NCBI GenBank assembly: GCA_902597175.1 | Contig: CACJWN010000003.1 | Location: 1-52,641, forward strand | DNA length: 52,641 bases | Direction of reading: 5' to 3' | Source of the DNA: an uncultured Pelagibacteraceae bacterium | GTDB taxonomy: Bacteria > Pseudomonadota > Alphaproteobacteria > Pelagibacterales > Pelagibacteraceae | Shown here: in pieces, positions 37,010-43,321 of the stretch | Layout: the number at the start of each line of letters is the position of its first letter | How positions within the stretch are numbered: position 1 is the stretch's first letter | The notes under the pieces: generated by a model | The model's database searches: none | Seen by the model: only the letters and a program-made list of their open reading frames with translations | Told to the model about the DNA's origin: nothing | Program-made: the position numbers and the translations under genes

Positions 37010-38266
37010 TTAGATTCTAGCCATTTTTGCTTGATTTCCAAGTTCTTCTTCAATGCGTAATAACCTATTGTATTTCGCTACTCTTTCAGATCTCGCCAAA
37101 GATCCAGTTTTAATTTGAGAAGACATTGTCGCGGACGCCAAATCAGCAATAAATGTATCTTCGGTATCTCCCGATCTGTGAGAAATGATAGTATTAAAAT
37201 CTGCAGCTTTTGCCATTGAAATTACTTCTAAAGTTTCAGTCAAAGTGCCTATTTGATTTGGTTTTACTAAAATACAATTTGCTGACTTTTCTTTTATTCC
37301 TTTACTTAAACGTTTTACATTTGTAACGAATAAATCATCTCCTACAATTTGAACATTTTTCCCTATTTCGTTTGTAATTTTTTTCCACGAATCCCAGTCC
37401 TCTTCAGCAAAAGGATCCTCTATTGATTTTATTGGATAGCTGGAAGTTAGTTTTTTATAATAACTAATATTATCTTCAACTGATGTGTAATTTTTTGATT
37501 GAATTGAGTACTCCCCTTTTTCGTTAATTAATTCATTAGCTGCTACATCTAGACAAATAACTATATCTTTTTCCGGTTTTAAATTTGACTTTTCTATTGC
37601 ATTTACAATTAACTCCAAGGCTTGCTCATTTGTATTAATTGATGGAGCAAATCCGCCTTCATCTCCTACATTTGTGAGCATTTTGTTTGATTTTAATAAT
37701 TTCTTCAAATTTTGAATAACAACATAACATTTTTCAATAGCATCCATAAAATTTTTTGCTGAGTCAGGTCTAATCATAAATTCTTGAATATTTAGGTCAT
37801 TGTCGGCATGCGCACCGCCATTAATGATATTCATTAACGGTAAGGGTAAAGAAAAAGCATTCCCTAAATATTTAAATAATGATTTTTTATTTGATAAAGC
37901 TGAACATTTTGAATTAGCTAGTGAAACTGCTAGAGTGGCATTAGCTCCCAAATTTTTTTTATTCTCACTTCCATCTAAATCTAATAAAGCTTTATCTATT
38001 TTTTTTTGGTCTTCAGACTCGAGCCCTTTAAGTTTATCTGAAATTTTATTATTTATATTTTCAACTGCAATATTTACACTTTTGCCTAAAAATTTATTCT
38101 TATCCTGATCTCTTAATTCGTGTGCTTCAAATGCACCAGTTGATGCACCTGATGGAGAAATTGCAGTGGCAGAAATATTATTTTCTAAAAAAACTTCTGC
38201 TTCCACTGTTGGATTTCCTCTGCTATCAAAGACCTGTCTGCCTTTTATACTCTTAATTTTTGCCAT
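37010..38266 (-). CDS. eno: Enolase
   Basis: This 418-residue enzyme converts 2-phosphoglycerate to phosphoenolpyruvate and is a likely degradosome partner. The N-terminal RQVFDSRGNPTVEAEV, GASTGAFEAHELRD, the catalytic Glu in NVGDEGGFAPS, the metal-binding Asp in CLDVAANE, SIEDPFAEEDW and GDDLFVTN, the base Lys in LVKPNQIGT and SHRSGDTED are all present. It is a standard length and sits between kdsA and ftsB with gaps of 2 to 3 bases. Confidence 0.97.
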   Translation of the reverse strand: MAKIKSIKGRQVFDSRGNPTVEAEVFLENNISATAISPSGASTGAFEAHELRDQDKNKFLGKSVNIAVENINNKISDKLKGLESEDQKKIDKALLDLDGSENKKNLGANATLAVSLANSKCSALSNKKSLFKYLGNAFSLPLPLMNIINGGAHADNDLNIQEFMIRPDSAKNFMDAIEKCYVVIQNLKKLLKSNKMLTNVGDEGGFAPSINTNEQALELIVNAIEKSNLKPEKDIVICLDVAANELINEKGEYSIQSKNYTSVEDNISYYKKLTSSYPIKSIEDPFAEEDWDSWKKITNEIGKNVQIVGDDLFVTNVKRLSKGIKEKSANCILVKPNQIGTLTETLEVISMAKAADFNTIISHRSGDTEDTFIADLASATMSSQIKTGSLARSERVAKYNRLLRIEEELGNQAKMARI

Positions 38267-38268
38267 TG

Positions 38269-39090
38269 TTATTTTACTATCTTATCTATCTCGGTAAGTT
38301 TTTTTAACAAATTTTTTACTTCATTTAATGGAACCATGTTTGGACCATCTGAAGGTGCATTATCTGGATCCTCATGTGTTTCCATGAAAATTGCACCAAC
38401 GCCAACGGCAATAGCAGCACGAGCTAAATAAGGAACAAATTCTCTTTGTCCACCACTTTTCTCTCCCATACCACCTGGTTGTTGTACTGAATGAGTTGCA
38501 TCAAATACGATTGGAAATCCGAATTTCGACATTATAGGTAGTGATCTCATATCTGAAACAAGAGTATTGTAACCAAAGCTCGCTCCTCTTTCTGTAATTA
38601 AAATATTTTTATTCCCAGAGTCTTCAATTTTTTTTATTACATTAGCCATATCCCACGGAGCTAAAAATTGTCCTTTTTTAACATTAATTATTTTACCAGT
38701 TTTTGCTGCAGCAATTAATAAATCGGTTTGTCTACATAAGAACGCTGGAATTTGAAGGACATCCACGTGATTAGAAACTACAGAACATTGTTCGGCAGTA
38801 TGAACATCAGTTAAAACTGGGACACCAACTTCTTTTCTAATTTTATCGAAAATGGGAAGTGATTTTTCTAAACCTAAACCTCTTTTTCCTTTTAAACTTG
38901 TTCTATTAGCTTTATCAAAAGAAGTTTTGTAAATAAGATTAATACCTAGCTCGCTTGTAATTTTTTTAAGTTCGTTTGAAATCTTTATAGCGTGCTCTTC
39001 ACTCTCAAGCTGACAAGGGCCAGCGATTAGAGTAAATGGTTTGTTGTTAGCGATCTCAAAATTAGAACATTTTACTTTATGATTATTCAT
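38269..39090 (-). CDS. kdsA: 3-deoxy-8-phosphooctulonate synthase
   Basis: This 273-residue TIM-barrel enzyme joins arabinose 5-phosphate and phosphoenolpyruvate to make Kdo 8-phosphate for lipopolysaccharide. Key segments are [13 protein letters not shown] (about 23-35), [45 protein letters not shown] and [11 protein letters not shown]. It overlaps the pyrG stop by 4 bases and lies before eno, the typical alphaproteobacterial order. Confidence 0.95.
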
Positions 39091-40709
39091 TTTGTTGTAT
39101 TGATTTTAGCAGCCTTTATAAATGAAGAGAATAAAGGATGTGGTGCTAAAGGTCTAGATTTAAATTCTGGATGAAACTGAACTCCAATAAACCAAGGATG
39201 TTTTTCCAATTCTATAATTTCTGGTAATTTGTTGTCTGGAGATAAACCTGAAAAAATCATACCTTTGTTTTCAAAATCTTTTTTATAATTGATGTTAACT
39301 TCATATCTATGACGGTGTCTTTCGTTTATCTTCACTGCATTGTAAATTTTACTTATTTTTGTGTCTTTTTTAAGTCTTGCTTCATAACTACCTAAACGCA
39401 TTGTTCCGCCTAAATCTTTGTCAGTGCCCTTCATTAATTTTCCATCTTTTGTCCATTCACTCATTAGTCCAACGACTGATGCTTTAGATGGTCCAAATTC
39501 GCTAGATGTTGCTTTTTTTATATTTAATTTATTTCTAGCGAATTCAATCACTGCCATTTGCATACCAAAACAGATGCCTAAGAAAGGAATTTTGTTCAAT
39601 CTTGCATAATTAATAGCTGCTATTTTTCCTTCTGTGCCTCTTTTACCAAACCCTCCTGGTATCAAAATTCCAGATACTCCTTTAAGTTTATTTTTTATTT
39701 CACTTGGTTTTAAAAAGTCAGACTCAATTCTTATTAAATTCACTTTTAAATTATTTGCTATTCCACCATGTGTTAAAGCCTCGTCTAAAGATTTATATGC
39801 ATCTTTAAGCTCAACATATTTGCCAATTATTGCTATGTTAACTTTATTTTTTGTGTTCAAAACTAAATGGGTAATTTTTTTCCAAGGAGAAAGATTTACT
39901 TTTTTCTTAGATTTAACTCTAAAAAATCTTAATACTCTTTCATCTAGTTTCTCTTTATTAAAACTTATCGGAGCTTCATAAATTGTTTTTACGTCCACAG
40001 TTTCTATTACATCTTCTATTTCAACGTTACAAAATAATGAAATTTTCTTTCTTTGATCTAAAGGTATAGATCTTTCAGATCTGCAAATAATAATATCTGG
40101 TTGAATACCTATACTCCTTAATTCTTTAACTGAATGTTGGGTTGGTTTTGTTTTTATCTCATCAGAGGCCTTCATGTAAGGGACTAAAGTTAGGTGAATG
40201 AACAATGTATTTTTTTTACCTATTTCATTTGAAAATTGTCTTATAGCTTCTAAAAAAGGTAGACTTTCGATATCACCAACAGTACCCCCTATTTCGCAAA
40301 TAACAAAATCTTCTTTATTTGAATCATTTTTTATAAATTCTTTAATTCTATTTGTAATGTGAGGTATTACTTGAACAGTTTTACCTAGATATTTTCCTTG
40401 TCGTTCTCTTTTCAATACGTCATTATAAATTTTACCTGTAGTAATATTGTCTGATTTTTTTGCTGAAATTCCTGAAAATCTTTCATAGTGTCCTAAATCT
40501 AAATCGGTTTCCGCACCATCATCTGTAACGAAAACTTCACCGTGTTGAAAAGGACTCATTGTTCCAGGGTCAACATTTAAGTAAGGATCTAATTTTCTTA
40601 TTCTTACTTTAAAACCTCGAGATTGAAGTAGGTAAGCTAATGATGCAGATGATAATCCTTTTCCCAGAGAAGAGACCACGCCGCCAGTAACGAAAATGTA
40701 TCGCGCCAT
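39087..40709 (-). CDS. pyrG: CTP synthase
   Basis: This 540-residue enzyme aminates UTP to CTP using glutamine. The synthetase half starts with [16 protein letters not shown] and has the Mg region [19 protein letters not shown]. The glutaminase half has the oxyanion GGFGKRG, the nucleophile Cys in GICFGMQ and the HPEF His-Glu pair near the C-terminus. The start ATG at 40709 follows a 17-base inverted repeat directly, with no Shine-Dalgarno. It overlaps kdsA by 4 bases and is 44 bases after secG. Confidence 0.97.
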
Positions 40710-40753: not shown

Positions 40754-41053
40754 TTACTTTGATTGGGGTATTTGTGGAAGATTTGAATTTTCCTCTTCCT
40801 CTTTCTCTAAAACTGATTGTGTTTCACGAAACTCGTCTCTAGAGATAGCTACAATTGCAATACTACAAATTATAAATAAAGTGGCAATTATAGAGGTAAA
40901 TTTTGTAAGAAAGTTTCCTACTGACCTTGCGGACGTGAAATTATCTTGTGAAACACCTAAACCTAATGCCCCACCTTCAGATCTCTGCAGTAGAATTACA
41001 ATAATTAATATTATTGCTAGTATAACGTTTATTAAAATTAGTAAACTTTCCAT
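40754..41053 (-). CDS. secG: Preprotein translocase subunit SecG
   Basis: This 99-residue membrane protein is the small subunit of the SecYEG channel. Two hydrophobic segments (about 3-22 and 49-70) flank the conserved QRSEGGALGLG and the following Gly/Ser-rich loop. The C-terminus is acidic (EKEEEENS). It lies 5 bases after tpiA, a common bacterial pairing. Confidence 0.92.
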   Translation of the reverse strand: MESLLILINVILAIILIIVILLQRSEGGALGLGVSQDNFTSARSVGNFLTKFTSIIATLFIICSIAIVAISRDEFRETQSVLEKEEEENSNLPQIPQSK

Positions 41054-41058
41054 AACGT

Positions 41059-41802
41059 TTATCTATAGTAATTTTTTATTATATCAATAAATTTTTTTGA
41101 GGATTTTGAAGCTCCACCTATTAGAAATCCATCAATTTCCTTAATGTCTTTAAATATTTTGACACTATTACCGTCCACAGAACCTCCATAAAGAACTGCA
41201 GGATTTTTTTTCTTATAAATTTGTTTTAATATTTTTTTTATGTAAATGATTGTTTCCTCGAGCTCATTTTTTGTTGGAATTTTACCTGTTCCAATAGACC
41301 AAATCGGCTCATAAGCTACTATAATATTATCTTTATTAAATTTTTTCTCTAAAACTTTTGTGATTTGTTTTTTTAAAACACTAAAAGTTTTTTTATTTTT
41401 TTTTTCAATTTTATTTTCACCTACACAAAAGACAACTTTTAAATTATTTTTTAAAGCAAAATTTACTTTGTTCTTTAGCATCTGATTTGTATCACCCTCG
41501 CTCCTATTATCTGAATGACCCACTAATGTACATTTTGCTCCAACACTTTTTAACATATAAGGGCTAATCGCGGCTGTATTTGATGAAAAGTGGTCCTTCT
41601 GATAACAATTCTGAGAACCAATCAAAATTTTTTTGTTCTTAAAATATTTAGAAAAAGTCTCTAATAAGATATATGGTGGTGTTATAATTATTCTATATTT
41701 TTTACGATTTTTATCTTTTAAATGAAAAAAGTTAATTTTTTTGATTATATTTATAGATTTTGGGACGCCAAACATTTTCCAATTTCCAATAAAGTATTTC
41801 AT
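41059..41802 (-). CDS. tpiA: Triosephosphate isomerase (Glu97 replaced by Asp)
   Basis: This 247-residue TIM-barrel enzyme interconverts dihydroxyacetone phosphate and glyceraldehyde 3-phosphate. Catalytic residues Asn7 and Lys9 (GNWKM), His96 (GHS) and the base Glu in AYEPIWSIGTGKIPT are present, with the phosphate loop YGGSV near the end. The nearly invariant Glu after GHS (Glu97 in standard numbering) is Asp98 here: the motif is GHSDNR, not GHSERR. The sequence is otherwise full-length, so activity is expected but may be altered. It is divergent from ppiD and leads into secG. Confidence 0.93.
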   Translation of the reverse strand: MKYFIGNWKMFGVPKSINIIKKINFFHLKDKNRKKYRIIITPPYILLETFSKYFKNKKILIGSQNCYQKDHFSSNTAAISPYMLKSVGAKCTLVGHSDNRSEGDTNQMLKNKVNFALKNNLKVVFCVGENKIEKKNKKTFSVLKKQITKVLEKKFNKDNIIVAYEPIWSIGTGKIPTKNELEETIIYIKKILKQIYKKKNPAVLYGGSVDGNSVKIFKDIKEIDGFLIGGASKSSKKFIDIIKNYYR

Positions 41803-41866: not shown

Positions 41867-43321
41867 ATGTTAACTTCAATAGGAAAATTTTCTAAGTCTT
41901 TTTTTATCAAACTTTTGGTTGGAATAATTATTCTTCCATTTGTTTTTTGGGGAATGGGTGATGTATTTAGAGGTGGAAGCCAAAATGTAATAGCTTCGGT
42001 AGACTCTAAGAAGATAAGCACACAAGAGTTTGTGAAATATCTTCAAAGGCTCAATCTTAACGAGGAACAAATTAAAAATTTACCAAATACAAATCTTATT
42101 GAGAAAATTCTATCTGAATATATTGGAAAAAAGGTTATGTCATTAGAAATTGAGAGACTTGGAATAATGGTAAATGATGTTTCTTTAAGAAATATTATTA
42201 AAAATGATAAATCTTTTTTCAAAGATGATAAATTTTCAAGAACTAAATACGAAAAATTTTTATTAACGAGTGGTGTTACCGCTCCATTATTTGAGGCAAA
42301 TATCGCAGAACAGGAAAAAAGAAGGCAATTTTTAAGCTCTATATCTGGTGGTACGGTCATTCCTGAAATATTAATCATCAATGAATTTAAAAAAGAGAAT
42401 CAAATCAAAACAATTCAATATATTGATTTAGAAAAATACCACTCCAAAGATAGACCTACAGAAAAAAGTAAAAAAGAACTTTATGAAAGAAATAAAAATG
42501 TTTTTTTTAAAGAATTTAAAAGTCTTAAATATGCTGAAATTACACCAGAAAAAATAAGTGGCAACAAAGAATATAGTGAAATTTTTTTTAAAAAATTAGA
42601 CACTTTTGAAAATGATATTTTGGATGGTCAAACTTTCAATGAAGCAGTACAAAATTCTAATCTAGATGTTATTTCAATTAATAAAGTTACTGCAAATAAA
42701 GAAGATGAAAATAAAAAAAAAATTGAAAGGATACCAGATGATCTTTTTAAAAAAATCTACAGTATAAATAATACGAAAACGCCTAAGGTCATTAATTTAG
42801 GTAATAAATATTATTTAGCAGAAGTATCGAATATTGAAAAGAAAAGTAGATCGATTAATGATCCAGAGGTTCAAGAAGCATTGAATGCGCAATTAAGTTT
42901 TGAGAAAAAAATTGAAAATAATAATTCAATTATAAAAGATATCAGTATGGGAGCTTTTGACAAATCAAGATTTATTAAATTTGCATCGGATAATCAATTG
43001 GAAGTTAAAGATTATAAAATAAATGATTTGAAACAAAATGAAATTTTTTCTGAGAATGTTTTGAAAAGAATATTTCAACAAAAAGACGGAGAAATCAATC
43101 TTATTACTAATAGCACTTTATCTAAAAGCTTTTTAGTTATGTCAATTAAGACTAAATATAGGGATTTAAAAAAAGGAAGTAATGAATATGAGAAATATGA
43201 AGCAAAAGCTCGACTAAATTTAGTTAATAAAATCTATCAATCTCATGATAATAATCTTAATGAAAAATATAAAGTAGAATTTAATCAAAGAACAATAGAA
43301 CGAGTTAAAAATTCATTTTGA
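41867..43321 (+). CDS. ppiD: PpiD-like periplasmic folding factor (SurA N-terminal type)
   Basis: This 484-residue protein has an N-terminal membrane anchor (about 13-30, LLVGIIILPFVFWGMGDVF) and a large periplasmic part. The start and the following SVDSKKISTQEF are typical of the SurA_N_3 domain of PpiD. A parvulin domain is not obvious in the middle, and the protein is shorter than E. coli PpiD (623), so isomerase activity may be weak or absent. It would chaperone exported proteins leaving SecYEG. Its stop overlaps the trpE start by one base, the order common in alphaproteobacteria. Confidence 0.8.
   Translation: MLTSIGKFSKSFFIKLLVGIIILPFVFWGMGDVFRGGSQNVIASVDSKKISTQEFVKYLQRLNLNEEQIKNLPNTNLIEKILSEYIGKKVMSLEIERLGIMVNDVSLRNIIKNDKSFFKDDKFSRTKYEKFLLTSGVTAPLFEANIAEQEKRRQFLSSISGGTVIPEILIINEFKKENQIKTIQYIDLEKYHSKDRPTEKSKKELYERNKNVFFKEFKSLKYAEITPEKISGNKEYSEIFFKKLDTFENDILDGQTFNEAVQNSNLDVISINKVTANKEDENKKKIERIPDDLFKKIYSINNTKTPKVINLGNKYYLAEVSNIEKKSRSINDPEVQEALNAQLSFEKKIENNNSIIKDISMGAFDKSRFIKFASDNQLEVKDYKINDLKQNEIFSENVLKRIFQQKDGEINLITNSTLSKSFLVMSIKTKYRDLKKGSNEYEKYEAKARLNLVNKIYQSHDNNLNEKYKVEFNQRTIERVKNSF

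Follow-up and report, generated by a model that had tools for sequence, protein, structure and literature searches.

Aspartate in place of the conserved Glu97 of triosephosphate isomerase throughout one SAR11 genus-level clade, with accompanying changes in loops 3 and 4

Triosephosphate isomerase (TPI) is a standard textbook case of an enzyme brought close to perfection. The closest described systems to the protein considered here are the canonical dimeric TPIs (PF00121) of chicken, yeast, human, and Brucella and the mutants engineered from such enzymes. According to the portions of a 2025 review used here, Glu97 of known TPIs forms an ion pair with Lys12, Thr75 from the partner subunit bonds Glu97 and Asn10, and Gln64 bonds Lys12 and the Gly76' amides (PMC12874384). 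Among the papers that these portions cite, one describes Glu97 in its title as "fully conserved" and another concerns rare variation at residue 96 (PMC12874384). Engineered replacement of Glu97 by Asp has had very different outcomes: section 3.8 of the review, as excerpted, reports a 100-fold drop in kcat/Km for Plasmodium falciparum TPI (PfTPI), no detectable effect for the chicken enzyme, and only small changes for the trypanosome, yeast, and human enzymes, differences that the review authors ascribe to packing around Lys12 (PMC12874384). The weight of Glu97 is thus disputed, as mutants differ between species. The initial annotation of the present locus held that the exchange lowers activity strongly, which this part of the record does not support as worded; published work points both ways, and a strong loss of activity from Asp97 is not established. 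Among the matches listed in a search of open-licence papers, we found no study of a natural Asp97 TPI or of a SAR11 TPI. The paper on residue 96 reportedly deals with Phe96 of the Plasmodium enzyme.

A second comparison is offered by the human variant E104D, the most frequent TPI-deficiency mutation. It lies at the dimer interface and, in the sections of the source drawn on here, is described as having activity of the same magnitude but as heat-labile (PMC3853089). The comparison of 20 TPIs in those sections gives Glu104 and Lys112 as invariant among bacterial and eukaryotic enzymes, with Asp104 in archaeal TPIs (PMC3853089).

The gene studied here lies in a window of 52,641 nucleotides (the whole stretch of DNA analyzed) from an uncultured Pelagibacteraceae bacterium. 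The features of the gene and its product are as follows.

41059..41802, minus strand: tpiA (triosephosphate isomerase, TPI), 247 aa, identified by open reading frame, Pfam TIM, and AlphaFold2 model
41776..41778, minus strand: Lys9 (canonical Lys12), the active-site lysine and, in known TPIs, the partner of residue 97 (PMC12874384, as excerpted)
41569..41586, minus strand: loop 3, residues 73 to 78, SSNTAA; mostly GA[HFY]TG[DE] in the class; Thr76 (canonical Thr75) retained
41509..41511, minus strand: codon GAT of Asp98 (position 97 in yeast, chicken, and human numbering); Glu in 170/170 sequences from outside the genus
41506..41508, minus strand: Asn99 (canonical Arg98); Asn in 118/118 genus rows; 97% of the sampled class sequences have Arg
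41491..41493, minus strand: Asp104, in the alignment column of human Glu104; in the genus, Asp in 116/118 and Glu in 2 (L070 and L117)
41308..41310, minus strand: Glu165, the catalytic base, within YEPIWSIGTG (loop 6)

Residues of the window protein were equated with canonical positions by alignment and human TPI numbering. Window residue 98 is canonical residue 97; other TPIs have one more residue in the loop that follows GHS, and the window and human numbers hence coincide from residue 103 on. The Pelagibacteraceae TPIs compared were one residue shorter after GHS (window 41461-41508, residues 99 to 114) than those of the second family of the order and of other alphaproteobacteria.

By Pfam score, fold, and catalytic residues, the window protein belongs to the TPI family. 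It scored 211.6 bits against Pfam TIM (PF00121; cut-off, 20.1) and is the sole TIM-family match in its genome, which is 86% complete. Its AlphaFold2 model, a monomer, has a mean pLDDT of 89, falling to 75 over the loop-3 block (residues 71 to 80). The best PDB match to the model was Brucella melitensis TPI (4nvt_A; Z, 34.4; rmsd, 1.7 Å; 245 residues aligned), the Z scores for the canonical dimeric enzymes ran from 32 to 34, and almost every one of the 50 titles listed names TPI; the model has the TIM-barrel fold of solved TPIs. Against the NCBIfam equivalog TIGR00419 (tim) it reached 112.9 bits, below the cut-off of 130.6. Among nine other SAR11 TPIs this cut-off was passed by three of the six with Glu97 and by none of the three with Asp97; as Glu97 enzymes miss it as well, the miss reflects SAR11 divergence and not Asp97. 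SAR11 TPIs lie near or under this threshold (7/10 tested fail), and automatic annotation may therefore fall back on weaker naming rules for them.

We surveyed residue 97 in relatives at several taxonomic distances. A TIM match was present in 122 of 169 genomes of the same genus and in 14/14 of those at least 90% complete. TPIs were fetched for 119 of the 122, the other three being C-terminal fragments that end short of site 97. All 118 rows aligned at the site carry Asp; the 119th (L119) has a broken frame, and another reading-frame piece of it also contains GHSDNR, the motif that the window gene encodes with GGT CAT TCA GAT (41520..41509, minus strand; GHSD) followed by NR. Identity to the window TPI falls to 62% within the genus, so Asp97 is not one shared recent copy. 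Of the TPIs at 61 named loci in GTDB genomes, the nearest, that of AG-360-D04, is 98% identical. These named loci, which overlap with the genus set and so do not count as independent of it, carry Asp in 52 cases, Glu in seven, and a gap in two, and the seven with Glu are most similar, among the references compared, to a group that we designate g6. Together, g6 and these seven g6-like loci (AG-414-B15 and AG-359-B04, for example) make up what we call the sister SAR11 group. TPI matches were split between frames in three genus members, L118 (G110), L117 (G043), and L119 (G004), through assembly error or decay; split or incomplete TPIs also include L113 (G084), in which the N terminus is missing from the aligned frame, and the named locus L225.

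Outside the genus, all 170 TPIs read have Glu97 and none has Asp. They comprise 50 from the same order (of 122 non-genus genomes with a match), 90 from a search of the class (of ~111 matches), and 30 from a search of the phylum, which were the best-scoring loci (29 outside the class and 1 inside) and are biased to canonical enzymes. Glu97 was found in 35/35 from other genera of the same family, 15/15 from the second family of the order, 90/90 from the class (L169 and L294 read GHSERR and L261 reads GHCERE, so still Glu), and 30/30 from the phylum. The initial annotation had read GHSD in place of GHSE at 41509-41520, described the Glu as nearly invariant, and considered a natural Asp enzyme unusual; all of this is borne out by the sequences surveyed, which were confined to the phylum. 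Frequent Asp97 in other TPIs is rejected within that survey of a single phylum. Aligning SAR11 TPIs, which had been proposed as a check on whether Asp is fixed, gave an answer in two parts: fixation holds for the genus and does not extend to the other genera of the family.

Glu97 is strongly conserved yet not part of the definition of the TPI family, and it is one of two strongly conserved residues that the window protein lacks, the other being Glu104. The earlier statement that all other catalytic residues remain is right for the catalytic machinery itself. In covered genus rows, Asn10 is present in 115/115, Lys12 in 115/116, His95 in 118/118, and Glu165 in 118/118, with all four in the window TPI; the lone non-Lys entry at Lys12 is L113, the row without its N terminus. 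Ser96 is kept in 118/118, Gln64 and Thr75 are retained, and Cys126 and phosphate-binding loops 6, 7, and 8 are invariant where covered (Pro166, Trp168, Ile170, Gly171, Gly173, GGS at 206 to 208, and GG at 229 and 230). The statement does not carry over to nearly invariant neighbors, which are altered: R98N, E104D, and G72S, with Gly76 replaced by Ala or Ser in most members. Asn replaces Arg98 in all covered genus members (118/118) and is already present in 68% of the family's other genera. At the dimer interface, Asp replaces Glu104 in 116/118, and Lys112 is retained in 118/118; residue 102, variable elsewhere, is Glu in 116/118. In loop 3, SSNTAA is the commonest sequence of the genus (74 rows) in place of GA[HFY]TG[DE], and position 74 is Asn or Asp in 116/117 genus rows where most others have an aromatic residue or His. 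Ancestral loop-3 glycines persist in some members (Gly76 in 22/117 and Gly72 in 6/117). Each of these members has Asp97, which therefore does not depend on those loop-3 changes.

Compared with canonical dimeric TPIs, the genus shares the fold, Asn10, Lys12, His95, Ser96, Cys126, Glu165, loop 6, and the YGGS and GG phosphate loops, and it differs in Asp97, Asn98, Asp104, a loop 3 that is mostly SSNTAA, and one residue less after GHS. The engineered E97D enzymes of chicken, yeast, trypanosome, human, and P. falciparum have the same substitution at the same site, as far as the excerpted review describes them (PMC12874384), but are laboratory mutants that are otherwise canonical, whereas the genus enzyme is natural and fixed and has loop 3 and loop 4 changes. 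The human E104D variant has in common with it the Glu-to-Asp exchange at the dimer interface (PMC3853089, as excerpted), but in the genus Asp104 is the normal state and occurs with Asp97 and, in 116/118, Glu102. By analogy with the human variant, the heat-lability associated with Asp104 may matter less in cold seawater. The sister SAR11 group resembles the genus in loop 4 length, Asn98, Lys233, and gene neighborhood but has Glu97, Glu104, and Gly72 in 9/9. In 13 columns, at least 90% of genus members share one residue that never occurs in the nine g6 and g6-like sequences. Five of these fall in loops 3 and 4, namely, 73 (Ser instead of Gly), 78 (Ala), 98 (Asp), 102 (Glu), and 104 (Asp); the remaining eight columns are 41, 62, 89, 195, 203, 223, 245, and 247, and at 62 it is g6 that deviates. 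Changed conserved columns were concentrated in residues 61 to 113 (7/16 versus 4/39 elsewhere; Fisher p = 0.009), a region picked post hoc.

Asp97 is fixed and under purifying selection in the genus. Of the genus tree rows, 69 encode it as GAT and 46 as GAC, and the tree requires at least 30 switches between the two, with none to Glu. For comparison, 28 conserved fourfold sites show between 15 and 34 purine/pyrimidine switches of the third base (median, 23.5), the change that would make an Asp codon a Glu codon. Acidic positions 70, 133, 152, and 180 switched between Asp and Glu 13 to 18 times each, and positions 30, 129, 165, 210, 224, and 240, like residue 98, never did so. Across the gene, dN/dS was 0.03 to 0.10 in ten close genus pairs with the 247 codons alone. 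It was 0.03 to 0.18 in 13 pairs when ~13 codons upstream of the start were included; the three pairs absent from the former set are L039/L041, L004/L005, and L059/L075, and the last gave the highest value (0.18) with a dS of only 0.03.

The neighborhood of tpiA is a run of genes in the order eno, DAHP-synthase/KdsA family gene, CTP synthase, secG, and tpiA, with a divergent gene beyond.

37010..38266, minus strand: enolase (eno), in the same gene run as tpiA
38269-39090: DAHP-synthase/KdsA family gene (kdsA), between eno and CTP synthase in the run
39087-40709: CTP synthase (pyrG), in the same run
40754..41053, minus strand: secG, directly downstream of tpiA (Pfam SecG, 56.4 bits)
41867..43321, plus strand: divergent gene with a SurA-like N-terminal domain by Pfam (called ppiD), followed by trpE, trpG, trpD, and trpC

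In the 20 relatives fetched, the gene order is the same wherever their stretches cover it. Besides enolase, the window encodes pyruvate kinase. The window genome (86% complete assembly) gave no match to phosphoglycerate kinase (PGK) or to class I or class II aldolase. In the genus, 13/13 sampled genomes with a completeness of 90% or more have PGK, 22/25 genomes searched (the window genome included) have class I aldolase, and class II aldolase exceeded its cut-off in 0/37. PGK and class I aldolase adjoin each other in relatives (G142, for example), and their absence from the window genome is likely a gap in the assembly. Relaxed constraint following loss of lower glycolysis was considered and rejected on these counts of PGK and class I aldolase.

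Flanking genes bear on the number of origins. The genus comes together with g6 (Glu97) adjacent in a tree of trpE, trpG, trpD, and ppiD (support, 71) and in one of kdsA, trpE, trpG, and ppiD (support, 99), a gene set that mixes both flanks. A tree of eno, kdsA, and pyrG rejects the genus as a single clade (p-AU, 6e-95), owing to two members in which these genes are g6-like. In these Asp97 members, L355 (G119) and L358 (G020), eno-kdsA-pyrG groups with g6 and the trp/ppiD genes and TPI are of genus type, which is recombination with a breakpoint near pyrG/tpiA. In the TPI tree itself, the Glu-bearing g6 branches within the Asp group, a placement that is weakly supported, and the Asp rows made up one side of a branch in 0/200 bootstrap trees, but a topology with a single Asp clade survives the AU test (p-AU, 0.43). 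Two origins of Asp97 were set aside given that weak support, the p-AU value, and the two flanking-gene trees that unite the genus. A single Glu-to-Asp change on the genus stem is the simplest reading, and a reversal to Glu in g6 is a possible alternative history.

With a probability of roughly 70%, these sequence comparisons suggest that the window encodes a genuine and very probably active TPI of a clade in which Asp97 is fixed and selected and in which the contact between loops 3 and 4 has been repacked. Asp97, one carbon shorter than Glu, would still supply a carboxylate for Lys12, directly or via water. The freed space would be filled by repacking of loop 4 (R98N, E104D, and the one-residue-shorter loop) and by loop 3 of the partner subunit, and catalysis would be unchanged, with Glu165 as the base, His95, Lys12, Asn10, and loops 6 to 8 in their usual roles. 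Since the genus keeps Ser96 and Glu165 and the packing residues Asn10 and Gln64, we infer that it should stand nearer to the tolerant orthologs than to PfTPI, with near-normal activity. In favor of this reading are the Asp/Glu split at residue 97, the codon switches and low dN/dS, the conserved catalytic residues and TPI fold, the clustering of changed columns around loops 3 and 4, the absent or mild E97D effects in all of the engineered enzymes except PfTPI, and the presence of the surrounding pathway, with class I aldolase and PGK in the genus and enolase and pyruvate kinase in the window. Counted against this reading are the 100-fold cost of E97D in PfTPI, as excerpted, from which it follows that tolerance of Asp97 depends on background, together with the ancestral glycines found alongside Asp97, the TIGR00419 miss, and a monomer model that is less sure at loop 3.

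A related account is that Asp97 began as a neutral one-off exchange, later locked in (epistatic entrenchment), which at no stage altered activity. Its confinement to one genus that groups in two flanking-gene trees, the absence of a detectable E97D effect in chicken TPI in the excerpted review (PMC12874384), and the variation of loop-3 glycines inside a genus where Asp97 does not vary all speak for it, and we regard it as a serious contender that falls somewhat short of even odds. It overlaps with the repacked, active enzyme favored above, from which it is inseparable by sequence alone. Another account, toward which the initial annotation leaned, is a slowed enzyme; Asp97 would weaken the positioning of Lys12, and slow-growing oligotrophs could cope with a less efficient TPI. 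The PfTPI result in the excerpted review (PMC12874384) and the alteration of several further nearly invariant residues in the genus fit that idea, but mere tolerance predicts other residues or reversion at the site, neither of which appears among the 118 sequences even though the third base has switched 30 times or more, and the same family's other genera keep Glu97 in 35/35; we consider a slowed enzyme unlikely.

It would be far more surprising if the protein had changed its substrate or function and were no longer mainly a TPI. The long branch leading to the genus and its sister group in the TPI tree (0.57 to 0.69 changes per column) could be read in that way, but the gene is the only TIM-family match in its genome, its catalytic and phosphate-loop residues are intact, aldolase and PGK are retained in the genus, and the TIGR00419 miss is not peculiar to Asp97 TPIs; we therefore give such a change very little credence. 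Least credible of all is an error of sequencing or assembly, or a gene in decay, to which the frame-split TPI matches of three genus members (G110, G043, and G004) might point. Sequencing error had been named in advance as something that would undo the observation; it is excluded, as is a pseudogene in the window, by the agreement of 118 genus TPIs, the use of both Asp codons, and the low dN/dS.

Taken together, the results add a natural variant to a thoroughly studied enzyme, and what is new in it is the co-occurrence of Asp97 with Arg98Asn, Glu104Asp, and an altered loop 3, the loop that contacts the active site of the partner subunit. We tentatively propose, as a possibility that we would not bet on, that the genus has rebuilt the dimer contact that positions Lys12, such that Asp97, Asn98, Glu102, and Asp104, together with an SSNTAA-type loop from the partner, would form a second natural way of holding Lys12, possibly with a looser, cold-suited interface that includes the human-deficiency substitution. 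The Asp97 clade and the Glu97 sister groups are matched native enzymes for a direct test of residue 97. In addition, as Glu104 to Asp is the normal state of the clade, its neighboring residues may reveal what makes the human TPI-deficiency substitution harmless.

Residue 233 (window 41104-41106) is Lys in the genus and g6, Leu in 97 to 100% of the class and phylum sets, and Gln or Leu in the family's other genera. This change, next to the last phosphate loop, predates Asp97.
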